DNA of 64,000 bases. It comes from Protonemura montana. Taxonomy: Eukaryota; Arthropoda; Insecta; Plecoptera; Nemouridae. This document shows positions 20,769 through 43,400 of the stretch, piece after piece. The position numbers and the translations under genes were made by a program. Position 1 is the first letter of the stretch, and each line of letters begins with the position of its first letter. The notes under the pieces were generated by a model. It saw only the letters and a program-made list of their open reading frames with translations. It ran no database searches and was not told the DNA's origin. The stretch spans positions 29,347,633 to 29,411,632 of the forward strand of contig OX387602.1 of NCBI GenBank assembly GCA_947568835.1. The letters run 5' to 3'.

Positions 20769-20856
20769 CCGAACGGTTTGGCTTGTTGGAAACACCGGTT
20801 ATCCTTAGATCACAGAAGTTAAGCAACACTGCGCTGAGTCAGGTATTAGATGGGTG
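20769..20856 (+). mobile_element. Isolated 5S-derived SINE head
   Basis: Starts CCGAACGGTTTGGC and contains GAAGTTAAGCAACACTGCGC, then GTATTAGATGGGTG. It is cut off exactly where a CAGGGGCGCCGACTCGG sequence begins at 20857, which looks like the end of another DNA element. Confidence 0.75.
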
Positions 20857-20966
20857 CAGGGGCGCCGACTCGGTGGGTGCTGGGGTGCCAGAGCACCCCT
20901 CGAAAAAATCCGAGGGGACCCCTCGAATTTTTGGTTATATTTTTAACTTTTTAGATTTTTTCATTG
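20857..20966. mobile_element. Possible terminal piece of another DNA transposon
   Basis: CAGGGGCGCCGACTCGG resembles hAT-like termini, and a palindrome CGAGGGGACCCCTCG follows. No matching opposite terminus was found in the window. It abuts the right arm of the large inverted repeat. Confidence 0.35.
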
Positions 20967-21966
20967 AACGCACAGATCGCAGCTATCTACGTGATTGCTG
21001 GTGGTAGAATTTATGCCTCTGTCAACTAAGTTAGGTTCCTCTTTGAAGAATTCAAAAATAGTTAAAAGTAAAATAGCCATAATTCTGGGTTGTGACAGGA
21101 GATATTATACTCATATTTATTCTTCATCTTTATCAAGATGTTCCTTTGTTATCTTAACCTGTATCAATAGCTTGATAGCTAAATAAATATATATTCATTC
21201 TTCATTCATTCATGTTTCACACTTGTCAGACTGGCGTATATATGCCAGTTTGACACATCTTCTCCCTCCGCACAATCGGCAACGTCAAAAATGTAGTTCC
21301 CCGACGAAAAGCGATTTATTTTTAATCATTTAGATCCTAGGTTCAAAAACTCTGGCGCAAAACACTAAAATAAGATTGATGAAGCGTGTGGTGGTCTTTT
21401 TTTGATTCTCAGACATGTTTTAAGGTAGATACAACTGTGTAAAGTTGACCCCTGTGTATTCCGCCATAAGCCAGTCCAGTCCACTGGTCCAGTCTCGCCA
21501 GTGGTCTCGCCCCCCGAAACTGCTTCGCGTGCTGCTACTTCGGTGCCCTATTCCGATTTTTAAACTGAACTACAAACGTTACGTTGAATTTATAAATGGA
21601 TTTTATTTAGAAACATAGTTGATGAAAAATTGGAACACGTGATAAGTTCTGTAAATGACACTTCAGTAAATAAATGAAAAGATGTTTAAAGGTAGTTTCT
21701 GATAATCACTGAATTTAGAACTGAGATTTTACAAGTATATATCATATTATAAAAATAACTCACCAGTGGAATGGATTCTTGCGGCGTCGCACTAGCACAG
21801 TTTAAAATCAGACTTTAGTTGGAAAGCAAAGTAAACTAGACTTGGTGGGAAATTGGCAAATTGAACAAGGTTCTGCGTACTTATAACAATCAGAATTACA
21901 AGTCTAAACGTAGGCTGGTGTACCCAAAACAGTCCAGGCATTACTCTAGATATTACCTATGATTAT
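20967..21966 (-). repeat. Right arm of the large inverted repeat
   Basis: Inverted counterpart of 15361-16258, including the nuclease promoter region and first ATG (minus strand, near 21081). It carries an extra insertion at about 21104-21210 ending in ATTC-type repeats, which looks like a short 3' end of a non-LTR retroelement. Confidence 0.85.
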
Positions 21967-22562: not shown

Positions 22563-22882
22563 AAACTATCCTTCCCGTATGAATTTGATGTTTGACCCAC
22601 CTTGGTATTTTCAAATTTAACATCCTTGCATACACCCACTGCCTGCTGTGTACTGGCAAGACTGGAATATGAAGGAGGGTATGAAAATAGTTTCTTTATC
22701 AGTGTCACTTGCATTGCATTTAACCTCAGGACCAAAGTTCTTGTTGTTAGTAGACTTTTAATGGCATGGATTAACGCATTGTGGATTGGCGGAGGAGGTA
22801 AGCTGGTCTTTTGACAGGAGTAGTCTATTTGCAAGAACGGGTGACGTATTCAATAATCATAATGGTTTAAACATTTTTGCAG

Positions 22883-23426
22883 TCAACCCAAAACGAGACT
22901 TTGCTAATGTTTTCCCACTTCAAGAGGATGAAGCACGATGACGATGATGAACAGCCAGATAGGAAGAACATTGGAGGAATGTCTCTTCCTACTTTCACAG
23001 AGAGCAATCAAGAGACACTGGAATTATTAAGGTAGGTACCTTAATTTGGAACTTTGCATAGGTTCTGAAATATTTTGTTTAAAATGATTCAGTCAAGTCC
23101 ATTGCATCAGTCCATTGAATTGCTGTACGTATGCATAGATCATGTCTTGAAATAGGAATGAGTGAGCAAAGTTTCAATATTTAACGTTGGCCTCGGAGCA
23201 CTGATTTCAACTGATTTAAGGTATTTAAAAACGATAAAAAAAGCTGAATCTGTTGGCCCAAAATCAGTGACCTACATGGATTGGTCAATGGGCAAGGCTA
23301 TCCTAGTATTAGTATTATCCTATATTTGCCCTGTTCCATGCAACCCAAGTAGCTAAACCGAGCCTACTTTTTGGTTGCAGCGAAGACTGTGATTATTACA
23401 CTCCCACCCAAAGCAGCCCGGAGCCG
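22883..23426 (+). CDS. p53 N-terminal module 1 (exons a and b)
   Basis: Exon a 22883-23031 and exon b 23381-23426. This is the most diverged copy: exon a is 149 nt (others 143 nt) and reads STQNETLLMF... to QETLELLR; exon b reads EDCDYYTPTQSSPEP. Splice sites are intact (gcag acceptors, gtaggt and gtaaga donors). Its upstream region has CATTTAAC where other copies have a TATA box. Exon a enters in phase 0 and exon b leaves in phase 0. It may be an alternative p53 start or an unused relic. Confidence 0.6.
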
Positions 23427-23686
23427 GTAAGAAACGATTTTATATATTCTATATATCCACTGATAGAAAACTCATCTAGATCTGTTTGTGTTTGTTTTTA
23501 TGAATTGTACATTGTCATTTTTATTTTGGATTTTATGATTACTCTGGTAATTACAAAATTACAAAAAAAAAAAAACTTGTTTGTGTATGTGTACGTATTG
23601 TTGTATTTGTAACTAGGGCTTTGCAAACGCAATTTGTGTTGCGTTGTAGATGAGCGTATCGATATTTGTGGCTGTTTAAGAATATA

Positions 23687-24102
23687 ACCGTTGAGTGTAG
23701 GTTATAGGTAGAGTTTCAACGTCAATGTTACAGTCTCTGTGTGAAAGATGGCCGCCAAACGACCACCTTACCGACAAAAATGCAGAGTACCGGAACATCA
23801 CGTTAAGTGGAGCCACTGTCGTATGAATTTTAATTTCGATATTTCTCGTAGGTTAACTCGCTTTTGAGACTTTTCATGCTTAAAAAATCTCCATCAATGT
23901 TTACCTAAACGATTGATGTACACGCAAAGATATTAAAAAGCGAGTAACCTACGAGAAATATCGAAATTAAATTTCATACGACAGTGGCTCCACTTAACGT
24001 GACATTCCGGTACTCTGCATTTTTGTTGGTATGGTAGTCATCTGTCACGCAGAGACTGTTACATTGACGTTGTTTCTCTACTTATAACCTACACTTAACG
24101 AT
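23687..24102. mobile_element. Palindromic MITE with long inverted repeats, copy 1
   Basis: Begins ACCGTTGAGTGTAGGTTAT and ends with its inverse (ATAACCTACACTTAACGAT). The arms are nearly perfect inverted repeats well over 100 bp long. It is flanked by ATA (23684-23686 and 24103-24105), a 3-bp target duplication; the empty site is visible in the other p53 modules (AAGAATATAACTGACC). Same family as 62296-62692. Confidence 0.85.
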
Positions 24103-24262
24103 ATAACTGACCAATCCTTCCCGTATGAATTTGATGTTTGACCCACCTTGGTATTTTCAAATTTAACATGCTTGCATACACCCACTGCCTGCTGTGTACT
24201 GGCAAGACTGGAATATGAAGGAGGGTATGAAAATAGTTTCTTTATCAGTGTCACTTGCATTG

Positions 24263-24270
24263 TATATAAA
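24263..24270 (+). promoter_or_regulatory. TATA box of p53 module 2
   Basis: TATATAAA, about 160 bp before exon a. The candidate downstream non-coding exon ends in a GC donor (GGAG|gcaagc) in this copy only. Confidence 0.4.
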
Positions 24271-24429
24271 CCTCAGGACCAAAGTTCTTGTTGTTAGTAG
24301 ACTTTTAATGGCATGGATTAACGCATTATGGATTGGCGGAGGAGGCAAGCTGGTCTTTTGACAGGAGTAGTCTATTTGCAAGAACGGGTGACGTATTCAA
24401 TAATCATAATCGTTTAAACATTTTTGCAG

Positions 24430-24967
24430 TCAACCCAAAACGAGACTAAGCTAAAGCTTGCTCCCAAGATGATTCACGATGACGATGATGAACAGCCAAA
24501 TTGGAAGAGAATTGGAGGAATGTCTCTTCCTACTTTCACAAAGAGCAATCAAGAGACAATTGACTCATCAAGGTAGGTACCTTAATTTGGAACTTTGCAT
24601 AGGTTCTGAAATATTTTGTTTAAAACGATTCAGTCAAGTCCATTGCATCAGTCAGTTGAATTGCTGTACGTATGCATAGATCATGTCTTAAAATAGGAAT
24701 GAGTGAGCAAAGTTACAATATTTAACGTTGGCCTCGGAGCACTGATTTCAACTGATTTAAGGTATTTAAAAACGATAAAAAAAGCTGAATCTGTTGGCCC
24801 AAAATCAGTGACCTACATGGATTGGTCAATGGGCAAGGCTATCCTAGTATTAGTATTATTCTATGTTTGCCCTGTTCCATGCAACCCAAGTAGCTAAACC
24901 GAGCCTACTTTTTGGTTGCAGCGAAGACTGTGATTATTACACTCCCGCCCAAAGCAGCCCGGAGCCG
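24430..24967 (+). CDS. p53 N-terminal module 2 (exons a and b)
   Basis: Exon a 24430-24572, exon b 24922-24967. Exon a differs from later copies: the LLMLAS segment reads KLKLAP, so the first in-frame ATG is the later one before IHDDDD, and the end reads QETIDSSR instead of QETMDLLR. Exon b is EDCDYYTPAQSSPEP. Phases 0 in and 0 out, splice sites intact. Confidence 0.6.
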
Positions 24968-25403
24968 GTAAGAAGCGTTTTTATATATTCTATATATCCA
25001 CTGATAGAAAACTCATCTAGATCTGTTTGTGTTTGTTTTTATGAATTGAACATTGTCATTTTTATTTTGGATTTTATTTTTATTCTGGAAGTTGTTGATT
25101 ACTCTGGTAATTACAGAATTACCAAAAAAAAAATTTTTGTTTGTGTATGTGTATGTATTGTTGTATTTGTAACAAGAGCTTTGCAAACGCAATTTGTGTT
25201 GCGTTGTAGATGAGCGTATCGATATTTGTGGCTGTTTAAGAATATAACTGACCAATCCTTCCCGTATGAATTTGATGTTTGACCCACCTTGGTATTTTCA
25301 AATTTAACATCCTTGCATACACCCACTGCCTGCTGTGTACTGGCAAGACTGGAATATGAAGGAGGGTATGAAAATAGTTTCTTTATCAGTGTCACTTGCA
25401 TTG

Positions 25404-25411
25404 TATATAAA
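25404..25411 (+). promoter_or_regulatory. TATA box of p53 module 3
   Basis: TATATAAA at the same place in the unit as in module 2, followed by a candidate non-coding exon with donor GGAGGAG|gtaagc. Confidence 0.4.
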
Positions 25412-25570
25412 CCTCACGACCAAAGTTCTTGTTGTTAGTAGACTTTTAATGGCATGGATTAATGCATTATGGATTGGCGGAGGAGGTAAGCTGGTCTTTT
25501 GACAGGAGTAGTCTATTTGCAAGAACGGGTGACGTATTCAATAATCATAATCGTTTAAACATTTTTGCAG

Positions 25571-26108
25571 TCAACTCAAAACGAGACTTTGCTAATGCTT
25601 GCCTCCAAGATGATTCACGATGACGATGATGAACAGCCAGATTGGCAGAGAAATGGAGGAATGTCTCTTCCTACTTTCACAGAGAGCAACCAAGAGACAA
25701 TGGACTTATTAAGGTAGGTATCTTAATTTGGAACTTTGCATAGGTTCTGAAATATTTTGTTGAAAACGATTCAGTCAAGTCCATTGCATCAGTCAGTTGA
25801 ATTGCTGTACGTATGCATAGATCATGTCTTAAAATAGGAATGAGTGAGCAAAGTTACAATATTTAACGTTGGCCTCGGAGCACTGATTTCAACTGATTTA
25901 AGGTATTTAAAAACGATAAAAAAAGCTGAATCTGTTGGCCCAAAATCAGTGACCTACATGGATTGGTCAATGGGCAAGGCTATCCTAGTATTAGTATTAT
26001 TCTATGTTTGCCCTGTTCCATGCAACCCAAGTAGCTAAACCGAGCCTACTTTTTGGTTGCAGCGAAGACTGTGATTATTACACTCCCGCCCAAAGCAGCC
26101 CGGAGCCG
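25571..26108 (+). CDS. p53 N-terminal module 3 (exons a and b)
   Basis: Exon a 25571-25713, exon b 26063-26108. Exon a reads STQNETLLMLASKM, DDDDEQPDW, then SLPTF and QETMDLLR. The ETxxxLL end and acidic content resemble a p53 transactivation segment (inference). The ATG in LLMLAS is a possible start. Exon a is identical to the module feeding the first DNA-binding domain. Confidence 0.65.
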
Positions 26109-26544
26109 GTAAGAAGCGTTTTTATATATTCTATATATCCACTGATAGAAAACTCATCTAGATCTGTTTGTGTTTGTTTTTATGAATTGAACATTGTCAT
26201 TTTTATTTTGGATTTTATTTTTATTCTGGAAGTTGTTGATTACTCTGGTAATTACAGAATTACCAAAAAAAAAATTTTTGTTTGTGTATGTGTATGTATT
26301 GTTGTATTTGTAACAAGAGCTTTGCAAACGCAATTTGTGTTGCGTTGTAGATGAGCGTATCGATATTTGTGGCTGTTTAAGAATATAACTGACCAATCCT
26401 TCCCGTATGAATTTGATGTTTGACCCACCTTGGTATTTTCAAATTTAACATGCTTGCATACACCCACTGCCTGCTGTGTACTGGCAAGACTGGAATATGA
26501 AGGAGGGTATGAAAATAGTTTCTTTATCAGTGTCACTTGCATTG

Positions 26545-26552
26545 TATATAAA
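26545..26552 (+). promoter_or_regulatory. TATA box of p53 module 4
   Basis: TATATAAA, 1141 bp after the module 3 box, in the same context. Confidence 0.4.
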
Positions 26553-26711
26553 CCTCACGACCAAAGTTCTTGTTGTTAGTAGACTTTTAATGGCATGGAT
26601 TAATGCATTATGGATTGGCGGAGGAGGTAAGCTGGTCTTTTGACAGGAGTAGTCTATTTGCAAGAACGGGTGACGTATTCAATAATCATAATCGTTTAAA
26701 CATTTTTGCAG

Positions 26712-27249
26712 TCAACTCAAAACGAGACTTTGCTAATGCTTGCCTCCAAGATGATTCACGATGACGATGATGAACAGCCAGATTGGCAGAGAAATGGAGG
26801 AATGTCTCTTCCTACTTTCACAGAGAGCAATCAAGAGACAATTGACTCATCAAGGTAGGTACCTTAATTTGGAACTTTGCATAGGTTCTGAAATATTTTG
26901 TTGAAAACGATTCAGTCAAGTCCATTGCATCAGTCAGTTGAATTGCTGTACGTATGCATAGATCATGTCTTAAAATAGGAATGAGTGAGCAAAGTTACAA
27001 TATTTAACGTTGGCCTCGGAGCACTGATTTCAACTGATTTAAGGTATTTAAAAACGATAAAAAAAGCTGAATCTGTTGGCCCAAAATCAGTGACCTACAT
27101 GGATTGGTCAATGGGCAAGGCTATCCTAGTATTAGTATTATTCTATGTTTGCCCTGTTCCATGCAACCCAAGTAGCTAAACCGAGCCTACTTTTTGGTTG
27201 CAGCGAAGACTGTGATTATTACACTCCCGCCCAAAGCAGCCCGGAGCCG
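26712..27249 (+). CDS. p53 N-terminal module 4 (exons a and b)
   Basis: Exon a 26712-26854, exon b 27204-27249. Same as module 3 except that exon a ends QETIDSSR, which removes the paired leucines. Phases 0 in and 0 out. Confidence 0.65.
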
Positions 27250-27685
27250 GTAAGAAGCGTTTTTATATATTCTATATATCCACTGATAGAAAACTCATCT
27301 AGATCTGTTTGTGTTTGTTTTTATGAATTGAACATTGTCATTTTTATTTTGGATTTTATTTTTATTCTGGAAGTTGTTGATTACTCTGGTAATTACAGAA
27401 TTACCAAAAAAAAAATTTTTGTTTGTGTATGTGTATGTATTGTTGTATTTGTAACAAGAGCTTTGCAAACGCAATTTGTGTTGCGTTGTAGATGAGCGTA
27501 TCGATATTTGTGGCTGTTTAAGAATATAACTGACCAATCCTTCCCGTATGAATTTGATGTTTGACCCACCTTGGTATTTTCAAATTTAACATCCTTGCAT
27601 ACACCCACTGCCTGCTGTGTACTGGCAAGACTGGAATATGAAGGAGGGTATGAAAATAGTTTCTTTATCAGTGTCACTTGCATTG

Positions 27686-27693
27686 TATATAAA
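27686..27693 (+). promoter_or_regulatory. TATA box of p53 module 5 (nearest to the first p53 body)
   Basis: TATATAAA about 160 bp before exon a at 27853. This is the most natural promoter for a simple single p53 transcript. No second TATA occurs before module 6, because that exon a is fused directly to the preceding C-terminal exon. Confidence 0.45.
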
Positions 27694-27852
27694 CCTCACG
27701 ACCAAAGTTCTTGTTGTTAGTAGACTTTTAATGGCATGGATTAATGCATTATGGATTGGCGGAGGAGGTAAGCTGGTCTTTTGACAGGAGTAGTCTATTT
27801 GCAAGAACGGGTGACGTATTCAATAATCATAATCGTTTAAACATTTTTGCAG

Positions 27853-30800
27853 TCAACTCAAAACGAGACTTTGCTAATGCTTGCCTCCAAGATGATTCAC
27901 GATGACGATGATGAACAGCCAGATTGGCAGAGAAATGGAGGAATGTCTCTTCCTACTTTCACAGAGAGCAACCAAGAGACAATGGACTTATTAAGGTAGG
28001 TATCTTAATTTGGAACTTTGCATAGGTTCTGAAATATTTTGTTTAAAACGATTCAGTCAAGTCCATTGCATCAGTCAGTTGAATTGCTGTACGTATGCAT
28101 AGATCATGTCTTGAAATAGGAATGAGTGAGCAAAGTTACAATATTTAACGTTGGCCTCGGAGCACTGATTTCAACTGATTTAAGGTATTTAAAAACGATA
28201 AAAAAAAGCTGAATCTGTTGGCTCAAAATCAGTGACCTACATGGATTGGTCAATGGGCAAGGCTATCCTAGTATTACTATTATCCTTTATTTGCCCTGTT
28301 CCATGCAACTCAAGTTGCTAAACCGAGCCTACTTTTTGGTTGCAGAGAAGACTGTGATTTGTACTTTCCCACCATAAGCAGCCCGGAGTTGGTAAGAAAC
28401 GATTTTATATATTCTATATATCCACTGATAGAAAACTCATCTAGATCTGTTTGTGTTTGTTTTTATGAATTGTACATTGTCATTTTTATTTTGAATTTTA
28501 TTTTTATTCTGGAAGTTGTTGATTACTCTAGTAATTACAAAATTACAAAAAAATTTTTTTTTTTTGTGTATGTGTAAGTATTGTTGTATTTGTAACAAGG
28601 GCTTTGCAAACGCAATTTGTGTTGCGTTGTAGATGAGCGTAGCGATATTTGTGGCTGGTTAAGAATATAACTGACCAATGCAAAGAGCAGAACATGCTAA
28701 AACTTTGAGGTCAATCTTTGAAAAAAATGCATAAAATTAAAATCGACTAAAAATGATCTGAAGTTCAAACTGCACTCCTTAGGGCCAAAACAGAAGGCTG
28801 TGTCGTAGTCACGTGATCTCTTTGGAACCCTAATTGACGGTTGTCAAGCAGAGGCTAAGAATTTTGTATTATGAACAGCACAAATGCACACAATTTTGTC
28901 GGAAAATTCCAAATAAAAAGGAAACAAAACCAAATACGGTCTAAAAAAACTTTGAAATAGCTTTATTTTTATGCGTTTTGCATATTACCTATGATATTAC
29001 CAAAGATTGGTACTAAAATATGAAATACTTTTGATGGGTACAACCGTTGAGTGTACACTCAACAATGTACACCCATCAAAGTTTACCTGAATTCTAAAGA
29101 TTTTCGTACATTTTGAAAAGTTTAAAAACTATTGGACCGATTTTGCTGAAAATCAAACTCGGTCTGAGTTGAGAACACAAAAATGTGTCCTGCAAATCTG
29201 GTCCAAATCAGTGCTGGCATTTGGACGCTAAAATAATTCTAGTGGCTACAGTATGGTTTATTCAATCAGCTTCATTAATACTGCACCTAAAAATTAAATG
29301 GAAACCTAGAAAAATCATGATATAATTGCTTCTAAATGTTTCTATTCAATCAGCTAGGAGACTTCTTTTGCATGTTGAATCTTTTACACTGCAAGCTCGA
29401 CTAATGTGTCTGCTGCGTGTTGTAGGATCTGACTGCAATTAGTCCGATGGAATGCAGCTACCAGATGAATGACGCATCAGATATTGCCTCGCAAGTTGTT
29501 GGCTCAGCTGACCTGGAGGCTACCTCGATGATTCCTAGCGTTGTCAGGTTCCCAGGGACTAGTCAGTTCCACCTAGACTCTGAGGGAATTAAAGAGACCA
29601 AATTTGTAAGTTCTTATAGCTTTAAATTATTGTAGGGCATAGGCCACATTTATTGGTGAATCTGAAAAATCTTGTAAAATGGTTGGGTGACGAGAAGTTT
29701 CTACTAAACTGACAGTTTGTTGTTAACGTAGCTTACCTCTGTGAATCCATGCAATTGTAATTAGGCTACCTATATTTATTTAGAATTCTTAACAATAACT
29801 GTAGTAATAACTGATCCTTTTGCAGTATTCCACTGGTTTGGAGAAGATCTTCGTAACGAGAAACACCAAGGTCCCAATGAAGTTTGTGTGTGACTGGAAT
29901 TTGGAGTTTGGTTTGATTTCTAATCCAAGTGTAAGAGCTGTGTTGCTATTCCAATCAGCCGAAATAGTGGACATCATTGAAAGCTGTCCCATTCATGTTT
30001 CGCCTGCAGACGATAGCAACCGTAGTGAGTATTTCATTTTACTTGATACTAGACCGAACAAAATGCACTTTTGTCTGCCAAATTACACTCATATTTGTGT
30101 TTTAAGACGCAGATCTTCTCGAAAAATCCCGTGCAAGCCATGTCCTACGGTGTTACGACAGCCGAGCAATTTATTGCACTGATAAAGCGTCTGGTCGTCT
30201 TAGCGTGGTGGTACCCCTGAACTCACCACAAGCTGGAGCAAACACCACAACAATCATGTATTCGTTTGGTTGTCTCAATACTTGCCTCGGGATAAAGAGA
30301 AGGCCCACTCTGATTGTTTTCACTCTGGAGGACTCGCAGTGAGTAGTAGTTTCTATCCAAATTTTTCATGTTAATTTGAAAAAAAAAATGGTTTTGAAAT
30401 ATTATATCCTGCTATTTTTAACAAAAGTAGATACTAGTTCACTAGCAGATAATAACAATGCTGAATTGAATGTTTTGCGTTATCGGGTGTTTCAAATATT
30501 GATTGAATGATTTGTTCCGAGTACAGAGGCAAGGTGTTTGGCAGAGATTTGCTGCACATCCAGGTTTCAGCTTCACCCAAGAGAGACATGAAAAACGCCG
30601 AGAAAGTTAGTGGACTCAGGCCGGCCAAGCAAGGCTTCTCTGAGAAACGGAAGGCTACACCGGCTCCTGCCAAAGACAGCTGCAAACTAGTAACATCTGA
30701 GGCCTCCGATGGTTTCAGGATGGTAGGTTGGATATTTTCTAGTTTGTTCGTGGATTTATTCCTTTTTATATGCCACGCGATATTATTTGTAGGACATTTT

Positions 30801-31389
30801 CTGTAACTCATTGTGAAAATATTACTTTCTTAGGATGGTAAAACTTTGAAATTAATGCGACCAGTAGGTTGAAATAAAAAACAAGATTGAGGAGCCTTTG
30901 AAACTATAAAGCTTTTGACAGGATAACAATGACCTGTAAACTATTATTTATCTTAACCTATTTTATTTTGATATCTAGTTGTATTAAATCATTGTTCACG
31001 CAAGTGTAATGTCACCTTATCAAGCTATTCTGCAACCTGACTAGGGCTTGCCGTTCTGTTCCCGCAAGTAATATTTTCTTGTGTCTGCTTCAGGTACCAG
31101 TACTTAATGATGCCCACTACGAACGGGTCTTGGAGTATGCACACAGTAATCTCCTGCTCCGTATTGACAAGGAGCAGCGGGAGGCAATGCCCCGGGAATA
31201 CGAGCTTTTGTCTCTCTATACAGACGACAACCAAACAAACAAACACGATACTCAAAACGAGACTTTGCTAATGCTTGCCTCCAAGATGATTCACGATGAC
31301 GATGATGAACAGCCAGATTGGCAGAGAAATGGAGGAATGTCTCTTCCTACTTTCACAGAGAGCAACCAAGAGACAATGGACTTATTAAG
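27853..31389 (+). CDS. p53: p53-family transcription factor, copy 1 (stop codon lost, runs into copy 2)
   Basis: Exons: 27853-27995 (a), 28346-28391 (b), 29426-29605, 29826-30024, 30107-30338, 30527-30722, 31094-31389. Phases match throughout. The DNA-binding domain is recognisable: YSTGLEKIFV, zinc ligands in ESCPIH and FGCLNTC, then GRLSVVVPL, RRPTLIVFTLED and VFGRDLLHIQVSASPKRD. The C-terminal exon (VPVLNDAHYERVLEYA) fits a p53 tetramerisation helix. Family role: nuclear, DNA-damage-responsive, sequence-specific activator. Oddities: relative to human p53 the R273, C275 and C277 positions read Q, S and S, and the loop before RRP is one residue shorter. The tail has no stop: ...NKHDT continues as QNETLLM, i.e. 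a sixth module a. It could be read through as a fusion. Confidence 0.88.
29029..29081. repeat. Nested palindrome, relic of the ACCGTTGAG MITE
   Basis: ACCGTTGAGTGTACACTCAAC (29043-29063) is two MITE ends joined with no interior, set inside a second inverted pair, TTTGATGGGTAC / GTACACCCATCAAA. It lies in the p53 intron before the first DNA-binding-domain exon. The same structure recurs 3394 bp later. Confidence 0.6.
29085..29225. repeat. Diverged dispersed repeat, p53 intron copy
   Basis: Shares scattered words with 46436-46655 in a SHPRH intron (ATTTTCGTA, ACCGATTTT, CTGCAAAT). Non-coding, family unknown. It is repeated at about 32479-32619 by the p53 duplication. Confidence 0.45.
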
Positions 31390-34300
31390 GTAGGTATCTT
31401 AATTTGGAACTTTGCATAGGTTCTGAAATATTTTGTTGAAAACGATTCAGTCAAGTCCATTGCATCAGTCAGTTGAATTGCTGTACGTATGCATAGATCA
31501 TGTCTTAAAATAGGAATGAGTGAGCAAAGTTACAATATTTAACGTTGGCCTCGGAGCACTGATTTCAACTGATTTAAGGTATTTAAAAACGATAAAAAAA
31601 AGCTGAATCTGTTGGCTCAAAATCAGTGACCTACATGGATTGGTCAATGGGCAAGGCTATCCTAGTATTACTATTATCCTTTATTTGCCCTGTTCCATGC
31701 AACTCAAGTTGCTAAACCGAGCCTACTTTTTGGTTGCAGAGAAGACTGTGATTTGTACTTTCCCACCATAAGCAGCCCGGAGTTGGTAAGAAACGATTTT
31801 ATATATTCTATATATCCACTGATAGAAAACTCATCTAGATCTGTTTGTGTTTGTTTTTATGAATTGTACATTGTCATTTTTATTTTGAATTTTATTTTTA
31901 TTCTGGAAGTTGTTGATTACTCTAGTAATTACAAAATTACAAAAAAATTTTTTTTTTTTGTGTATGTGTAAGTATTGTTGTATTTGTAACAAGGGCTTTG
32001 CAAACGCAATTTGTGTTGCGTTGTAGATGAGCGTAGCGATATTTGTGGCTGGTTAAGAATATAACTGACCAATGCAAAGAGCAGAACATGCTAAAACTTT
32101 GAGGTCAATCTTTGAAAAAAATGCATAAAATTAAAATCGACTAAAAATGATCTGAAGTTCAAACTGCACTCCTTAGGGCCAAAACAGAAGGCTGTGTCGT
32201 AGTCACGTGATCTCTTTGGAACCCTAATTGACGGTTGTCAAGCAGAGGCTAAGAATTTTGTATTATGAACAGCACAAATGCACACAATTTTGTCGGAAAA
32301 TTCCAAATAAAAAGGAAACAAAACCAAATACGGTCTAAAAAAACTTTGAAATAGCTTTATTTTTATGCGTTTTGCATATTACCTATGATATTACCAAAGA
32401 TTGGTACTAAAATATGAAATACTTTTGATGGGTACAACCGTTGAGTGTACACTCAACAATGTACACCCATCAAAGTTTACCTGAATTCTAAAGATTTTCG
32501 TACATTTTGAAAAGTTTAAAAACTATTGGACCGATTTTGCTGAAAATCAAACTCGGTCTGAGTTGAGAACACAAAAATGTGTCCTGCAAATCTGGTCCAA
32601 ATCAGTGCTGGCATTTGGACGCTAAAATAATTCTAGTGGCTACAGTATGGTTTATTCAATCAGCTTCATTAATACTGCACCTAAAAATTAAATGGAAACC
32701 TAGAAAAATCATGATATAATTGCTTCTAAATGTTTCTATTCAATCAGCTAGGAGACTTCTTTTGCATGTTGAATCTTTTACACTGCAAGCTCGACTAATG
32801 TGTCTGCTGCGTGTTGTAGGATCTGACTGCAATTAGTCCGATGGAATGCAGCTACCAGATGAATGACGCATCAGATATTGCCTCGCAAGTTGTTGGCTCA
32901 GCTGACCTGGAGGCTACCTCGATGATTCCTAGCGTTGTCAGGTTCCCAGGGACTAGTCAGTTCCACCTAGACTCTGAGGGAATTAAAGAGACCAAATTTG
33001 TAAGTTCTTATAGCTTTAAATTATTGTAGGGCATAGGCCACATTTATTGGTGAATCTGAAAAATCTTGTAAAATGGTTGGGTGACGAGAAGTTTCTACTA
33101 AACTGACAGTTTGTTGTTAACGTAGCTTACCTCTGTGAATCCATGCAATTGTAATTAGGCTACCTATATTTATTTAGAATTCTTAACAATAACTGTAGTA
33201 ATAACTGATCCTTTTGCAGTATTCCACTGGTTTGGAGAAGATCTTCGTAACGAGAAACACCAAGGTCCCAATGAAGTTTGTGTGTGACTGGAATTTGGAG
33301 TTTGGTTTGATTTCTAATCCAAGTGTAAGAGCTGTGTTGCTATTCCAATCAGCCGAAATAGTGGACATCATTGAAAGCTGTCCCATTCATGTTTCGCCTG
33401 CAGACGATAGCAACCGTAGTGAGTATTTCATTTTACTTGATACTAGACCGAACAAAATGCACTTTTGTCTGCCAAATTACACTCATATTTGTGTTTTAAG
33501 ACGCAGATCTTCTCGAAAAATCCCGTGCAAGCCATGTCCTACGGTGTTACGACAGCCGAGCAATTTATTGCACTGATAAAGCGTCTGGTCGTCTTAGCGT
33601 GGTGGTACCCCTGAACTCACCACAAGCTGGAGCAAACACCACAACAATCATGTATTCGTTTGGTTGTCTCAATACTTGCCTCGGGATAAAGAGAAGGCCC
33701 ACTCTGATTGTTTTCACTCTGGAGGACTCGCAGTGAGTAGTAGTTTCTATCCAAATTTTTCATGTTAATTTGAAAAAAAAAAATGGTTTTGAAATATTAT
33801 ATCCTGCTATTTTTAACAAAAGTAGATACTAGTTCACTAGCAGATAATAACAATGCTGAATTGAATGTTTTGCGTTATCGGGTGTTTCAAATATTGATTG
33901 AATGATTTGTTCCGAGTACAGAGGCAAGGTGTTTGGCAGAGATTTGCTGCACATCCAGGTTTCAGCTTCACCCAAGAGAGACATGAAAAACGCCGAGAAA
34001 GTTAGTGGACTCAGGCCGGCCAAGCAAGGCTTCTCTGAGAAACGGAAGGCTACACCGGCTCCTGCCAAAGACAGCTGCAAACTAGTAACATCTGAGGCCT
34101 CCGATGGTTTCAGGATGGTAGGTTGGATATTTTCTAGTTTGTTCGTGGATTTATTCCTTTTTATATGCCACGCGATATTATTTGTAGGACATTTTCTGTA
34201 ACTCATTGTGAAAATATTACTTTCTTAGGATGGTAAAACTTTGAAATTAATGCGACCAGTAGGTTGAAATAAAAAACAAGATTGAAGAGCCTTTGAAACT

Positions 34301-34650
34301 ATAAAGCTTTTGACAGGATAACAATGACCTGTAAACTATTATTTATCTTAACCTATTTTATTTTGATATCTAGTTGTATTAAATCATTGTTCACGCAAGT
34401 GTAATGTCACCTTATCAAGCTATTCTGCAACCTGACTAGGGCTTGCCGTTCTGTTCCCGCAAGTAATATTTTCTTGTGTCTGCTTCAGGTACCAGTACTT
34501 AATGATGCCCACTACGAACGGGTCTTGGAGTATGCACACAGTAATCTCCTGTTCCGTATTGACAAGGAGCAGCGGGAGGCAATGCCCCGGGAATACGAGC
34601 TTTTGTCTCTCTATACAGACGACAACCAAACAAACAAACACGATACTTAG
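31251..34650 (+). CDS. p53: p53-family transcription factor, copy 2 (with normal stop)
   Basis: Exons: module a within 31251-31389 (fused to the copy 1 tail), 31740-31785, 32820-32999, 33220-33418, 33501-33732, 33922-34117, 34489-34650. The tail reads ...NQTNKHDT then TAG at 34648-34650. Domains and substitutions are those of copy 1. Copy 2 has no promoter or acceptor of its own in front of module a, so it is most easily expressed as the second half of a fusion. Read from 27853 to 34650 the joined exons give 2307 nt, about 768 aa, without interruption. A collapsed or expanded assembly would also give this picture. Confidence 0.85.
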
Positions 34651-36024
34651 GCATACTGGCCTGAAGACCGAACAGCCAAAGTATTGGACATTTGTAGCTA
34701 AGAGCTCACCGATAACAAGCTTAGCTGTCAACGTCAATTATCCATGTGTCTTGAGACTGAGCACTATTTATTGAACAAACTCCACAAATCCAGTCATCTT
34801 ACAGACTGGGCAATGAATCTAGAACCTGCTTTTCTCAAGTACTGTATAATCTAGTCGTGAATGAAGAAAGAGAGGGAGCGCATTTTATCTGAGAAGAAGA
34901 ATGACTTTGCACGGGTGACTCATCTAGGATGTGAATGTTTTGGCAAGATGTATATTTTATACTATATATTTTATTGATAAGGCCCAGTGTTTACCTGAGT
35001 TAGTGAGTTTGCTTTGACAGCTAGTTTAACTAAAATAAGTTCAAGACAACCTTAGAGAAAATAATACGTATTATTTTCTCTTAGCTTGTACTACATTAGC
35101 TATTTATAGTACGTTAGTATTTATATCTGAATAGGATGAATGAACGGTTGTGTAGGCCAGTGGAAGAGTAGCAATCATTATGTATTGACATCAATTAGCT
35201 ATTATAGGTTAGTTCTTGTCATTTTTATATTTTATGCAAAATAAATGCAAACTATTATCAAGCTTTGATTTCTTTAATATTGGGGCTAGAATTTGTGCAT
35301 GGAACCATCTTTGATTTAGAATAGGTCATGGTAGGTATTTTTTCTTTTTTTTTGCTTGATGGAAATGCAGGCATCACAGTTTAAAAGTTAAGCTAGATTA
35401 TGAATCTGAAATCTCAACATGTTTTCATACCTTAGCCCTGACAAAGTAGCACAGCAAAAAAAAAGACTCTGAAGACAAGAATTTGGACCAACAGTAAAAA
35501 ATACTTTTAAGGGGTTCATGAAATTTAAGTTGTCAAATAGCTCACATCACTTCAGTATTTGAAAATATGGCATTCAATAATTGAGCTAGAATTATGCTAC
35601 AGCCCTTGTGAGTGGATCCAGCGTCTACCCATGTAGATTTTTTATATAACTGCTAGCATTCAGAATCCAAAGGATAAGACAAGTGCTACGGACTGCATTT
35701 TTCAACCAAGCATTAAGGCTAAAAAGGTAATCAAGAAGTACCGCAACTGCGTAATTTTTTTTGAAGAAAATTATGTATGCTCATTTAAGACTTGTGAAAA
35801 TATTACCTACACAGGCTCCAGTGAAGTAGCACTGTTAGCATTTAGCCCAGAATATACAATGAAATACATTTTAATAAAATACAAAAAGATCATTTAGCCA
35901 AGAATATACAATCAAATACATAATAATAAAGTACAATGAGATATATATGTGATAATACAAATCAGGATTCAACATTAGAATGTCGCAATTTTTTTCAGGT
36001 TCATACCATTCTACATATATAATT
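34651..36024. other. Convergent 3' interval between p53 and Nuf2
   Basis: 3' UTR-like AT-rich DNA. A polyadenylation signal AATAAA for p53 lies at 35240-35245. No coding exon seen. Confidence 0.6.
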
Positions 36025-39000
36025 TCAATCAAGCTTTTCTGCATCTGCAAGCTCTTGGGCAGCCTTGGCTTTCAAAGCCTGTGCCGTAGCTAGTACTTTG
36101 TTGAGTGTTATGTCAACCTTGACCATCTCTTTTTTCACCTGAAATGGATGGTAACATGAAATTAGCTGGGGAATTAATGAATATAAGACAACAACAAGCA
36201 AATTTTAGAAATTGAAATAACATATGTACACAAGTATTACCAAGAAAATTGGAGAGTAAAATTGGGAAAAAGAAGAAAATTAACAAGATTAACTTATGTA
36301 TATAAATCTTTTTGGGGGTGGAATGCATGGAAAGGGTTAGAACTATTAGAGAAGGCAAAGTTTGAAGGTAAAAATGGACATGGATTTAAATTGATGGGAC
36401 AGAAATTAGGAAAGGGATTGAGATTCTAGAAAAAGGCATTGAGAGTGGAATGGGATTTATAAATCCTTTCTCCATCCAGCAACCACCACTGGGATTTCCA
36501 CTCCAATATCGAACAATATCTGGATATCCACCTTATCTGAACAGACTAATCCCCCTTCCCCAACACTTACCAAAATAACACTGCCCAGGAAAAAAAAACT
36601 CGCCACCCTCTCTAACCATACACCTACCCAACGTTTCAGAACCATGACCATAAGAATCTCTCTAACTGTGATTGTGATTTTCTTTGGTGCGTTCCCTAGC
36701 CCCATTACTGTCGCCATCTTCCTTCCCTACACTCATCCTCCGTCTTGTGTCACACTATCTATCAACCATTGTCAGGCATGATTAAAAAAATTATGTTCAA
36801 TCAGGACGTGTAGCAAAAATGTGATTTATTTAAACAGGGTCCAGAATGCTCATGAGTTTAGTTTTTAACTCAGACTTGCAAAAATAAAAAAATTCTAATA
36901 CCAATTAACAAACAAAAAAGATTCCGATTCCATTTTAAGATTTTGAAACCAAGTTCCCAATAAAATTCAATAAAAAAAGAGGAAAAAATAAATATTCTTG
37001 TGTATCGATGAACAGGAAACATGAAGAAAATAAAGGTAAATAATTGTTTCTGAAGTATGGTATTCTGCATGATTTCTAGCCAAGGAATTCAGTATGTGAC
37101 AGTGTAACCTACACATGAATTAGACTTTAGTTCATCAATACAATCAAGTCCAAATGCAAAAGTATACTGTTCAATAATGACAATAAATGGTGTCACACAG
37201 AACTTAAGAGATGGTTAAGCCCATAACAAAGTGATTATTAGTGAAGGTCCTTCACGTCAGCTGTGGCCCTCAGCTCAGCAATTGATTCATTTTGAGTTTA
37301 ATCAAAATTCTGATTTTGATTCTCTCCATTCATAAATAAAACTCCCACTTTCATCAGTTCAAAAAAGAAAAATTGAAAAAATTCTAATATTGATCCCAAC
37401 AAATGTATCGATTATTTCTATTCTTATTCCGTCCCCTGCATTTAGAGAGCTTCTAGTTTACTTTGAATAATTAGTTGATAAGAGTGCCAAGAGGCTGTGT
37501 AATTGCTGTTGGAAGAAAAATACTTTAAATCAGGAATTTAAGATGGAAGAAATTAAAAAAAACCTAGGACCCACAGCTTGCTATCAATGTGTAAATAAAT
37601 AAACAAATAATAATTACCATTTCATCCAGGTCATTTTTCTTTTTGTTCACAAATTCCTCACACTTGTTCTTGGTATCAATCCAGTACTGTGCTTCATCTT
37701 TCTGCTCTTTAATTATTGGTGCAAGCTTTTCACGAACCGCATTCTCAGAGTTCATTTTCTCGCCAACATTGGCTAGTTCCCTAAGGATTCAAAAATTTAG
37801 AATACATAAAAAAAAAAAAAAAACTAATGGGTGCCTATGTTTTGACAGATTTCCACATGCAGAAAGGTGTTCTCGTATTTTAAATGAGGCACACCTTTAT
37901 GAGAGCGGAATTAGTGGAGAATAGACACCATTGATACTTGTCAAGTTTTCTATTGAAATATACTCTAAATCATTTGCTTGTTGAGTGTTTGATTTCTAGA
38001 TTCAACTTCACATAGAAAATAATTAAAATGGTCTTACAATTTGAGCTGCTGCACGGTTTTCTCCATCACAGCCAACCTGCTGTCTGCTTTAGCTTTTTCT
38101 GTAGTTATAGTCTCCTTCAGCTTGTTAACTATTGCTTTTTTTTTTATGTATTCATCTTGCTTCGATTTACTCTCAATACCTAGAGTTTCCAGAGTTTCCT
38201 CTTTGTTTGAAATCTGACTTTCCTTTTCACTGTGAAAAATAAAAACATTAAAATTGAACCTAGTTTTTTGTGGTTAAGGAAATTAAGAAAATAGAAAATA
38301 AACTTAAGTTGGGCACAATGTTAGGTAGCATGAGGTTGGCAGGTTGCAGAGGTTCATTCATCTAAAAATACTACCATCACCAAAATCTAAGAGGGCAAAA
38401 TTACTGACGGCCAAGAACGAGACTTAAAATTACAGAAAATACACCAAAAAGCGTAGGAGCAAAGTTTTTTACAAATTACCAGTAAAAATGGTACATCAAA
38501 AGGTCAGTTTTTTAAACAATGACTTAACTGCTTTTATTGAATCATGGTTTTTATACAATAGACGAATTTGAATCAGCAAAGGATTTGAAATGTGAATATT
38601 GTTTAGCTATTATCTAGAATTTATAGACCTAATAAATTTGACTTGTTTTCATGCTCATTTACATTTACCATGTGCCAAGAGTGTTCTTCTTTGTCTGTAT
38701 TTAAAGAAATGGAAATAAAAACTTATAAGAATTGTATGGACCTAGTAAGATTAAATAAATATCTTTTTAATGACTTACTCCAAATATTGTTTCAATTTGC
38801 GGGCATTTTCCATGTGTTTTTCCATTTTAGATTTTATTTCCATCATCTGCTCAAACGTTTGAACTTTTTTTGACAACATTTCGATTTCTTTTTCATAATT
38901 CTGAACTTCATTATTCATTTCCTTCAGTGACTCCTTCTTAGAAAGGTCCTTCCTTTCAATTTGTTCTGGATCCATTATAACCAAAATTTTCTGCGAGTTC

Positions 39001-39704
39001 AGCTCCTCCTCTAGCTGATTCACACCTTCTTTCAGGGAATTTGTTTTCAACTTCTCTGTTTGAAGTTTACTTGTCAGTTCATTTGCCTGAGAATTCATTT
39101 CATCGATAGTAGAAGTTAACTTGGCACATGAGCTTTTCTTAGCTGATAAAAACTTGTCCATTTCAGCTAATTTGCCAGCTCTTTGGGAACGGGCAAAATC
39201 TTTTCTGTTTGATTCCTGAAGGAGATTGTCTTTCTTCTCACAAAGCTCTTGCATTTGTAACTTTTTTTCTTCTATGGAATTAATTTTTGGATAAATATCT
39301 TCCATAGCCATTTGACAGAAAGATACATAGTTATCCATCACTGCAATCCCTCCATAAGTTCTCTTATATGTAGGGGATAGCAGGTCTAACATTGAAAAAT
39401 CAGTAGCATTCTGTCGCTGAAAAAATGTTCGAAGCGGAGTGAAAATCTTCATCATAGGAAGAGTATCTTTGTATGCCTCGGGGTTTTCAAACTTCTTGAA
39501 GTCCTCAGTAGACACCGAAGTGTTGATTTTCAAATAACGTAAATATTCCACATACAAAGAAACTACAAATTCTGATACCGGTTCTTTGATGTCCTTTTCT
39601 TTGATCACCATCAATTTTGGATTAATGTGTCCAAATCTGTCTTTTATATTCACAACAAGTTCCGCCAACGATAATATGCCAGGGACAGTTATTAATGAAT
39701 CCAT
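36025..39704 (-). CDS. Nuf2: Kinetochore protein Nuf2
   Basis: Four exons on the minus strand: 39704-38779, 38229-38038, 37780-37618, 36138-36025; phases 2, 2, 0; 464 aa predicted, the usual length. The N-terminal ~140 residues resemble the Nuf2 calponin-homology fold (LLSPTYKRTYGGIAVMDNYV). After that almost the whole protein is coiled coil, with the family-like block KILVIMDPEQIERK. It works in the Ndc80 complex with Ndc80, Spc24 and Spc25 at the outer kinetochore, attaching microtubules. It is convergent with p53 and divergent from SHPRH. Start: ATG at 39704 begins MDSLITVPGILSLAEL, close to the family start. Confidence 0.9.
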
Positions 39705-40412
39705 TTTAAAGTCTAATTGTCAGAATTGATCAAAAGTAGCGCAGCCAGGACCGAAGACGAACAATATCTTGGGAAAAAGTAGTTAAGTACGCACATTGAA
39801 ACCATGCAATCAAGGTTAGGATGCTATTTGTTCCCGCCGAAGTGTAATTCACACGAACACTCACGAACCATTTCGAACATTTCCGAAGAGCGGGCGCCTA
39901 AATTTCGAAATCATTGTACTACTTTGGATCAAATACCATATATATGATTTTCTAAATTACCCTCGCTCTAGATGCTACCGTTTAATTAAATTCAATTTAG
40001 ATATTGCTTACTTTGTAATATCAAACCAATGATTAATAGTAATAATTAATAATAATAATAATAATAATATAGTTATAATAATTAATAGTAAATTTAATAA
40101 ATCAGTATGTCAGAAAACTCCACTAAACTGGGGCTGTCGTAGTGTCTCTAGTCTGTGATGGTGCTGCAGTGAACAAAGCGATGCTTGAAGGGCTGGGTGT
40201 CTTTTTATTCGATCATCGAAAATGTTATGGTATCTTTGAATGTGCTAGGTATACGCTCTAGGACGATTTTAACTAGGCTGGTATCCCTGAAGTTAGTGAT
40301 ATTTGGCTGGCGGTGAAAAGAAATACGCACATTGCAGTGACAGTATTTTGATAGCAGTTGATATTGAAAGTCATTAAACTATCTAAAGCATTAAGTTAGA
40401 TCCATTTCACAG
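39705..40412. promoter_or_regulatory. Head-to-head promoter interval of Nuf2 and SHPRH
   Basis: About 0.7 kb separates the two start codons on opposite strands. It includes an AAT microsatellite near 40040-40070. No TATA box stands out for either gene. Shared regulation is inferred from spacing only. Confidence 0.5.
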
Positions 40413-43400
40413 ATGACGAAAAGGAAGAAGTCGGTGCCTCAGCATCTTAATAAGGAGGAGAGAAACGGTTTGCAATGGGAGCTTAGTATTCCAGCCGCAT
40501 ACCAAAATTTTGAGGTTGTGGAGGCTCCTGGGTTGTTAGATGCTTCTACAACATCATCGATTCCACAGGTTTCCTCCACGTTTTCACCGTACACAGGTAA
40601 GGCTGACAGTATTTAGGAAAAACCAAACTGGAGCTCCAGCTGGAATATGACTACGGGACTTAAGTACCTATTCTCGGAACGTGACCGCTACTTAACAGCG
40701 ACCCATTAACTAGGTAAAATTGTTTGTTCAGATTGCTATAACCATAGCTGTAACGTTTCGAGAATATGTAGGTTGACTTTGCATGACCAGCGTGTCATCA
40801 CATACGAGATGCTCAAATAATATTAAATCAACTTCAGTAAAAGAAATTTAAATTGAAAACTGAAAATAACTGTCCCATACATATTTTACGTATATAAGGC
40901 TTGTCTGGCAACACCGTGTGAATTTCATCTAACTTCACGGCGTTTTGCCAGCCAGCCTGATCAATCAAAATATTGTCTTTGATCTAGCCTATAGACCGAC
41001 CATCTAACACATTCCTTTTCTGGTTATCGGTTTAGTTAGGCTGGGATTGCCTTTTGAGTCTTCTTGAAACTCCATATAGGCATAGTGCTCATTCATGCGC
41101 TTTTGAGCACACAGATAGGTATATTAGGTTAATCTCTTCACTGATTTTGGTGATCGTATGTTTGAATTAAAGTTTCACCACAGTTTTGTCTCATACCAAG
41201 GTTACCATCTTGGTTGTGGATGTTCAGATTAATTTCTGCAGCAGCCTGCGTCAAGATTTAGGAACGAGGGATGTTGGTTGTCATCCCAGGAACAATATTT
41301 TTAGACGTGGCAATTGTTTTGACAACTGCAATATCTATAGGTGTACACACGGTTTAAGCATAAAGGGTATTGTGGCAAAATGCTATGTATAAGAATGCAC
41401 ACAAAACTATCCAGTATTTTTAGTCAAATCTGAAAGTTAACAACATTTGCAAAATAGGATTTTTCCAAAAATAATTTTGAGAAAAATCGCACTGAGATAA
41501 CGCAGTCTATCGAAGTTTTTCGAAGTTAAAGAAAATGTTGACTTAAGCGTTTCGATTACAGTCATGACTAGAGATAGGAAAACCATTTTTTACAAGGCAT
41601 AGTCAACACGTTCCCCTATATTGTGTGTCCAATAGCAACTCATTCTGAGCCAAGAGCCCTGTAATTATTAACCTTATATAAAAGCTTTAAAATTGCGATG
41701 TTCAACTTTTTAGTTTGTATCTGACCAGCTGACCAGCTGACCAGCTGGGGTAACATTTTTCTGTACATGTTGATTTAAATTGCGAAATTTGGTTAAAAAC
41801 GTGTGCAATTGGGTTATAATTGTTCAAAATTAAAATCTCTATCCTATTGTGACACTTTGAGGGTGATTTGAAAGCGTTTTTTTGGTGAAATATTGATAAT
41901 TGTGTTTGAAATTTCCTGCCTAGGAAAATTGGAGCCATGTCTCACAGTTCGATTTTTATTTCATTCAAAACTTGCCTTTAAATGACCTGCAGCAGTTTGG
42001 TAATACTCTTCATGCATGCCTATGAAAGTTATTGAAGAAATTGAGCACAAACGCTGTTATTTACGTTCGTTTTAAGTGAAATAGAAATAATTTTGCAAAA
42101 AGTTTGACAGATGCATTCATTTGTTTGGTTTTTTGACCACTGCAGGGTGAACGAATTCTTAAACTTATCTTTGCGGCAGTGCATTCAGGATATTCAAACG
42201 TCAATGTCAATGTCAACGTCAATGTCAAATTCTTTTCAAAATCTCTAGAACTGAAGAGAAAAAACTTGTGAAATTGGCTTATTTTGGTTCTTTATTCAGG
42301 ATTTAATCCAACTACGTCTTTTTCACGGTGATTTTAAAGAGCATTATTATAGTAAAGTATCAAAAATATTGTTGGTGTCTTGGCTAGCAAGATGAAAAAT
42401 AGCCACTTGACAAGCCCGTGGCATTCTTGTGGAGGTTATTTACACGTCAAAAAGGTTTGGAAAGTTAAACAATCTATTAACACAACTATTGGAATCTTTT
42501 GTAAACATATTTAAAGATATTTATTGTAAATAGTATACGAAAGACAAGAAATTTCTTAAAATACGACGATTTTTCTCCATCCCCAGCCTAGACAAGATCA
42601 CACAGTTGATTCCAAGCCATCAATGATATTTGTGACAAATATGTAAATCAATAACAATCCTAACTTTCTTTGCAGGTCTTTTACACATTAAATAGGGTTT
42701 TTAAACAAACAAAACACACTTGATTAGTTTTTTATTGATAATTTTGCCAAAACTAGATTTAAAGTGACATTGACAGATCAAAGATAAACATTTGACAGAT
42801 ATCTTTCATCGAATCAGGACGCCGTGGATACTTATTTTATTTTCGAGGATGCCGTGATTATTCAACAGGTATTTAAATTCAAAACGTCATTAATGACAGA
42901 GTGCAGTTTTATCAAATCTAATCCAAATAAGCAATCTAAGTTTAATACGGTTTTCTATGGAAGTGTTTAATATTGTATAGTACTTTATGGTGTTACATGG
43001 TAGTCTATGTTATTCTATGGTATTCTATGGTATTCTATGGTATTCTATGGAGTTCTATGGTATTCTATGGTATTCTATGGTATTCTATGATATTCTATGG
43101 TATTCTATGGTATTCTATGGTATTCTATAGTATTCTATGGTATTCTATGGTAAACTATGGTATTCCAAGGTATTCTATGGTATTCTATGGAGTTCTATGG
43201 TATTCTATGATATTGTTTGGTATTTTATGATTTTGTATGGTATTATATGGTATTATTTAGAGTTATATGGTATTCTATGGTATTGTTTGGTATTCTATGG
43301 TATTGTTTGGTATTCTATTATATAGTTTGGTATTCTATGGTATTTTATGGTATTTTATGGTATTGTTTGGTATTCTATGGTGTTCTATGTTATTTTATGG

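Follow-up and report, generated by a model that had tools for sequence, protein, structure and literature searches.

Does the p53-family gene lying on the + strand between 22.9 and 34.65 kb of the 64,000-nt window, by which we mean the whole stretch of DNA that was analysed, encode two p53 proteins in one polypeptide chain? The window corresponds to C1:29347633-29411632 in a searched genome of 258,480,905 bases in 34 contigs, and the match counts of all whole-genome searches are given as lower bounds. A sequence-only reading of the locus had proposed that the loss of a stop codon created an in-frame p53-p53 fusion exon. Our analysis suggests a different origin, namely a very young in-frame tandem duplication of the whole protein body in a divergent p53 paralogue.

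The N-terminal coding part of the gene consists of a pair of exons, a and b, which occurs in five modules (Table 1). Exon a is 143 nt long (149 nt in module 1) and runs from phase 0 to 2, and exon b is 46 nt long and runs from phase 2 to 0. Module 5 is followed by exons c, d, e, f and g, separated by GT-AG introns, and a sixth exon a, joined to exon g, begins at 31253. The exon phases of the gene (2, 0, 0, 1, 2, 0) presumably fit those of vertebrate TP53, as in the human gene.

Table 1 Features of the p53-family locus (positions are those of the window)
Feature	Position	Strand	Basis or remark
Module 1 (exon a 22883-23031, exon b 23381-23426)	22883-23426	+	Open over 195 nt, phase 0 to 0
Inserted repeat between modules 1 and 2	23687-24100	+	Repeat families D13, D16, I4, I8, I9
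Module 2 (exon a 24430-24572, exon b 24922-24967)	24430-24967	+	N-terminal exon pair
Module 3 (exon a 25571-25713, exon b 26063-26108)	25571-26108	+	N-terminal exon pair
Module 4 (exon a 26712-26854, exon b 27204-27249)	26712-27249	+	N-terminal exon pair
Candidate 5' coding exon of module 5 (8 codons, MHYGLAEE, then gtaagc)	27744-27767	+	Found by eye; putative
Copy 1 exon a (module 5), within which the duplicated segment starts	27853-27995	+	Copy comparison, spliced model
Copy 1 exon b	28346-28391	+	Spliced model
Copy 1 exon c	29426-29605	+	Spliced model
Copy 1 exon d, first part of the p53 DNA-binding domain	29826-30024	+	PF00870 match of the identical exon in copy 2
Copy 1 exon e, second part of the p53 DNA-binding domain (C238, C242; R248)	30107-30338	+	Spliced model, alignment
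Copy 1 exon f, remainder of the DNA-binding domain, then linker	30527-30722	+	Identical copy 2 exon, spliced model
Fused exon: stopless g (31094-31252) and acceptorless a (31253-31389)	31094-31389	+	ORF, copy comparison, spliced model
ACT, 3-bp microhomology at the duplication junction	31250-31252	+	Flank comparison
Copy 2 exon b	31740-31785	+	Spliced model
Copy 2 exon c	32820-32999	+	Spliced model
Copy 2 exon d, first part of the p53 DNA-binding domain	33220-33418	+	PF00870, E 3.3e-06 on containing ORF
Copy 2 exon e, second part of the p53 DNA-binding domain	33501-33732	+	PF00870, E 4.2e-21 on containing ORF
Copy 2 exon f	33922-34117	+	PF00870, E 7.6e-05, 23.1 bits on containing ORF, below the curated cut-off of 27
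Copy 2 exon g, native TAG at 34648-34650	34489-34650	+	Copy comparison, spliced model
AATAAA, first AATAAA/ATTAAA hexamer 3' of the final stop	35240-35245	+	Hexamer scan

The protein predicted from a single-copy model matched the p53 DNA-binding domain family PF00870 at residues 106-285 (145.5 bits, cut-off 27, E 2.3e-42) and matched DNA-binding-domain structures of p53, p63 and p73 in PDB (best E 8.4e-24). The best 60 of the 102 PDB sequence matches were p53, p63 or p73 by name, together with one p53 fusion protein and chain 7pc6, which is labelled simply as a DNA-binding domain and which we take to be that of Alvinella pompejana treated in PMC8901663. When the tandem gene and its paralogue (see below) were aligned with the sequence of a human p53 variant that had been engineered at some positions, all four zinc ligands (C176, H179, C238 and C242) were found in the tandem gene, and R248, R249 and R280 were retained. 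It carries the changes R175S, R273Q and R282M and a deletion of one residue beside G245; position 120 pairs with I within a gapped stretch of the alignment. R273 contacts DNA and, like others of the altered positions, is important in human p53. Identity to the human sequence was 61/184 aligned positions for the tandem gene and 59/158 for the paralogue. A homologue search in a set of 5.8 billion proteins gave no match with E <= 0.001 from 1,882 candidates.

Comparison of the two copies demonstrated that a segment of 3,394 or 3,395 bp is duplicated in tandem. Its left end lies inside exon a of module 5, after TCAACT, and its right end is the last codon 5' of the exon g stop. With a slash marking the breakpoint, the left flank reads GTCAACT/CAAAACG, the right flank GATACT/TAGGC and the junction GATACT/CAAAACG. 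At the junction (31252/31253), KHDT runs directly into QNETLL in frame, with neither an acceptor nor a stop between them: exon g of copy 1 ends in AAA CAC GAT ACT and is followed by CAA AAC GAG ACT TTG, and copy 2 reads GAT ACT TAG. The exon a part of the fused exon lacks its own acceptor and its first six bases. Copy 1, hence, is devoid of a stop and of the 3' flank, and copy 2 retains none of the sequence that precedes exon a. These results agree with the sequence-only reading in that NKHDT of copy 1 continues in frame as CAA AAC GAG without an acceptor, as seen in the copy alignment, and that TAG ends exon g in copy 2. The proposed loss of the stop codon, on the other hand, was not borne out, as there was no mutation and the right breakpoint of the 3.39-kb duplication lies just 5' of the stop. 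Mutation of the stop to a sense codon was ruled out, since the bases past the junction are those of exon a and not of the 3' flank.

The two copies are 99.85% alike when the indel is counted, and they differ by four substitutions (28044/31438, 28113/31507, 30891/34286 and 31157/34552 in copy 1/copy 2) and one indel in an A-run. Only one of these differences changes the protein (L to F, in exon g). At 28044 and 28113, copy 2 has the state of modules 3 and 4 and copy 1 has that of module 1, a pattern that points to probable exchange among modules or haplotypes. Besides these two swaps, two substitutions and the homopolymer change are left between the copies. As the states at both swapped sites also occur in other modules, hardly any new divergence separates the copies. 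An alternative is an assembly artefact, in which both haplotypes of a single p53 copy, or else a read joined wrongly, were set in tandem. The four substitutions and the homopolymer indel could be allelic differences; a near-exact tandem mitochondrial stretch in contig C4 is either a recent insertion or a sign of misjoins in this assembly. However, the junction links two different exons via microhomology and has no overlapping homologous ends, there is zero N in the window, and modules that are 99.5% alike, a 10-bp array and 99% inverted repeats were all resolved in the same window. The resolution of such near-identical repeats suggests a long-read assembly, for which a 6.9-kb double copy would be within reach. 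In a DNA search of the whole genome, one of at least nine scored matches spanned the g-a junction whole, at this locus, and none of them resembled a separate haplotig copy. We consider an assembly artefact improbable.

A spliced GT-AG model from exon a of module 5 to TAG contained 769 codons with a single stop at the end, giving 768 amino acids, so the earlier estimate of about 768 residues with phase kept throughout was reproduced. As four more a+b pairs lie upstream, 768 is the length of the frame from module 5 and not necessarily that of the protein. The fused exon is one open frame (ORF 31010-31393) which is entered in phase 0 and left in phase 2 like exon a, and its two splice sites are native and unchanged, the acceptor coming from g and the donor from a. 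Every splice site of exons a to g is present in both copies, except the exon a acceptor of copy 2. The DNA-binding domains encoded by copies 1 and 2 are the same, and the distance from the junction to the start of the second Pfam domain match is about 110 residues.

To evaluate how readily such a frame arises, each of the 22,737 possible breakpoint pairs, with one breakpoint in exon g and the other in exon a, was enumerated. The pairs in phase numbered 7,579, and 7,383 (32.5%) were both in phase and free of stops; microhomology of at least 3 bp occurred at 5.6% of the pairs. Since the duplication is young and an open frame is expected in about one of three such events, the tandem p53 frame needs no selective or functional reason.

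The sequence-only reading had also suggested two DNA-binding and two tetramerisation domains for the product. Both DNA-binding domains lie in the 768-codon frame, but exon g matched tetramerisation domains only at chance level. The C-terminal exon showed no match to the Pfam tetramer models or to PDB chains at E values up to 10, and when exon g was compared with segments of human p63, p53 and p73, 128 to 289 of 1,000 shuffles scored equally well or better. The boundary of exons f and g (DGFRM/VPVLNDAHYERVL) resembles the p63 domain by eye, and three sequence tests gave no support to this resemblance. Because exon g matches none of these domains above chance, a second tetramerisation domain is unproven. 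A crude pattern scan of the stretch downstream in the paralogue gave no convincing tetramerisation domain.

Based on these results, the following course of events is proposed. One tandem duplication of ca. 3.39 kb would have joined the last coding codon to the first shared coding exon, a structure evident in the sequence, and the 3-bp ACT microhomology may have provided the joining route. Transcription from an upstream module would read on through both copies, and the fused exon g-a would be spliced as an ordinary internal exon. Since copy 1 lacks a 3' flank and copy 2 lacks the region upstream of exon a, a fused mRNA is the simplest prediction. The predicted chain would consist of an acidic N-terminal segment, a DNA-binding domain and a C-terminal segment, followed by all three again, and the main product would have ca. 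760 to 776 amino acids if translation starts in module 5, at the ATG of exon a or in the candidate 5' exon. We put at about evens the view that one recent duplication produced a fused gene whose main product is a single chain of two p53 units.

A real duplication could nevertheless yield an ordinary protein through alternative splicing, an internal promoter or truncation, the duplication being neutral or mildly harmful and possibly a polymorphic copy-number variant. The 99.85% likeness of the copies, with two of the four substitutions representing existing module states, and the open frame expected anyway from 32.5% of such events are in line with this. Besides, the phases of exon b of each module and of exon c are compatible, so that splicing of b to exon c of copy 2 keeps the frame; intronic AATAAA at 28912, 30873, 32306 and 34268 could end transcripts early; and a promoter in copy 1 could drive copy 2, whose exon a contains ATG codons. 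A skip from module 5 would, however, bypass six exons with intact sites (c, d, e, f, g-a and exon b of copy 2), and the nearer exon c would normally be favoured in co-transcriptional splicing. An ordinary product thus appears possible but rather doubtful. As for the fused gene, the tandem allele is more likely young and near neutral than adaptive.

A whole-genome search with PF00870 gave at least five matches from nine scored candidates. One match fell in each copy at the tandem locus, with equal scores (80.3 bits), and a second p53 gene was found ca. 0.86 Mb away at C1:30,241,604-30,248,208, where three PF00870 stretches were each found once. This paralogue retains R175, R248, R249 and R273, and by alignment it appears to be a less altered p53 than the tandem gene. 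This raises the question of whether the tandem gene is a decaying paralogue in which a duplication occurred within a degenerating array, the main p53 function being left to the gene at 30.24 Mb. The changes R175S, R273Q and R282M and the deletion beside G245, set against a paralogue intact at R175, R248, R249 and R273, would fit such decay, as would the repeated exon array whose modules exchange variants. On the contrary, exons a to g are open in both copies, their splice sites are present except for the exon a acceptor of copy 2, and the zinc ligands, R248 and R280 are retained. Decay of this kind seems very unlikely.

Exon a was found by a protein-level search of the genome in at least six places from eight scored candidates, all in the tandem locus. 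At the DNA level, stretches of 79 bp with 78% identity to exon a occur on C14 (L017, 2957-3035) and C16 (L016, 3035-3113), near short GAGGTCAGCTATGA-type repeats. These stretches were rejected as parts of further p53 genes, as tblastn of copy 1 against two 6-kb stretches found no convincing body exon: the C14 stretch gave the exon-a-like match and two chance-level matches (E 7.4 and 8.0), and the C16 stretch gave the exon-a-like match. They are possibly the source or debris of exon a.

In the upstream array, modules 3 and 4 are 99.5% alike. Modules 1 and 2 are more widely spaced because a repeat is inserted between them (Table 1), and kin of this repeat with inverted arms occurs at 62296-62675. 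The candidate 5' exon of module 5 is in frame with exon a across an 85-nt intron, and its ATG is present in modules 3-5 and absent from modules 1 and 2. A TATATAAA stretch was found by eye 58 nt 5' of the position of this ATG in modules 2-5 (24263-24270 in module 2, 27686-27693 in module 5 and the corresponding sites of modules 3 and 4), and module 1 has GCATTTAA there. Each a+b module may have its own promoter.

Exons a and b encode acidic sequences containing, by eye, ETMDLL and DLYF stretches. According to a passage of PMC10303687, the p53 transactivation domain was not found in insects and crustaceans, which counts against exons a and b encoding such a domain if the animal is an arthropod. 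Two forms alternate at the end of exon a (27984-27992 in module 5 and its counterparts in modules 1-6). Modules 2 and 4 have IDSS, and the other form is hydrophobic, being LELL in module 1 and MDLL in modules 3, 5 and 6; this difference could change activation strength. In the 22570-28665 region, modules 2 and 3 differed at 14/143 sites in exon a vs 6/936 noncoding sites (Fisher, 5.5e-9; pN 0.072 and pS 0.083 in exon a), and modules 3 and 5 at 10/46 sites in exon b vs 23/935 noncoding sites (7.8e-7; pN 0.062 and pS 0.014 in exon b), the module pairs in these tests not being independent. This concentration of differences in exons is missing in some pairs: exon a is identical between modules 3 and 5, and exon b has 0 or 1 differing site among modules 1-4. 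The exon-biased differences could reflect diversifying selection or converted tracts of divergent sequence.

Several other elements were recorded around the gene. Sequences resembling 5S rRNA and related repeats occur at 12347-12467, 51067-51187, 18829-19286 and 20769-20856; two of the set exceed the Rfam gathering score, and the related repeats share the neighbouring part, which suggests 5S-derived short interspersed elements. Inverted arms at 15370-16261 and 20964-21961 (95-99% identity) surround a DDE_Tnp_4 transposase ORF (17934-18347), and ca. 190 copies of the 10-bp unit TATTCTATGG form a 1.9-kb array at 42971-44875. A Nuf2-family ORF lies on the - strand (38775-39719), and SNF2, SHPRH-type and RING pieces lie on the + strand (47694-61676); our guess is that these pieces form one SHPRH-like gene. 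Elsewhere in the assembly, the large contig C4 contains mitochondrial COX1 sequence twice (C4:5760925-5777755), the two regions being equally oriented and separated by 15.9 kb, and the mitochondrial contig C34 has 15,885 bases. In the mitochondrial contig, reading AGA as serine agrees with the invertebrate code and COX1 has an arthropod-like look, which gives a lead on the taxon rather than its identity. The first region differs from C34 at 7 of 4,338 bases and the second at 3 of 2,434 aligned bases, and this tandem sequence reflects a misassembly or else an insertion of recent date.

p53 assembles as a dimer of dimers, in which the mixing of subunits leads to dominant-negative and cooperativity effects. 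On DNA, the four DNA-binding domains that a p53 tetramer contains might in principle come from just two tandem chains, and the spacer of ca. 110 residues, presumably flexible, might let both domains of a chain occupy one response element. The full reading, in which the gene provides a natural single-chain tandem p53 with repeated acidic modules, two chains take the place of four so that half of the dimer of dimers is covalent, and a less altered p53 is kept separate, is in our view a long shot. If it is true, a natural covalent p53 dimer would offer a direct test of what subunit mixing contributes. Even if the allele is neutral, the locus would present an in-frame whole-body duplication of a transcription factor caught at its very start, adjoining an N-terminal exon array of young, near-identical modules.

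The gene resembles the p53/p63/p73 family in the zinc-ligand DNA-binding domain and in the order of acidic N-terminal exons, DNA-binding domain and short C-terminal exon. It differs from the single-unit invertebrate p53 of this family in that a single gene contains the body twice in frame, there are five N-terminal exon pairs as well as the fused exon, R175, R273 and R282 have been replaced, and no known tetramerisation domain is matched significantly by the C-terminal exon. Engineered tandem dimers of the p53 tetramerisation domain exist; they also link two p53 units covalently but are one-domain laboratory constructs. Loci with variable first exons such as UGT1A have tandem upstream exon sets and a shared body, and the p53 modules could likewise each splice to the shared body, although this arrangement is predicted and modules 3 and 4 are nearly identical.

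Among the matches listed in a search of mostly open-access literature, covering titles and the openings of abstracts, no natural p53-p53 fusion was found. Passages of PMC8901663, PMC4155161, PMC10303687 and PMC5543598 describe no p53-p53 chain, and the word 'tandem' occurs 0 times in these four papers. As described in a passage of PMC5543598, the p53 gene was duplicated independently in insects, Ciona and elephants; these cases share the lineage-specific gain of p53 but concern duplicated genes rather than copies in one open frame. Nuclear receptors of the 2DBD type from flatworms, molluscs and Daphnia contain their own DNA-binding domain twice per chain, and the authors attribute their origin to a recombination event (PMC1810520, in part). 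According to the same portion of that paper, the 2DBD receptors occur in several phyla, were isolated as cDNA and have the DNA-binding domain alone doubled, whereas the p53 locus doubles the whole protein body, is very young and is known from genomic sequence.
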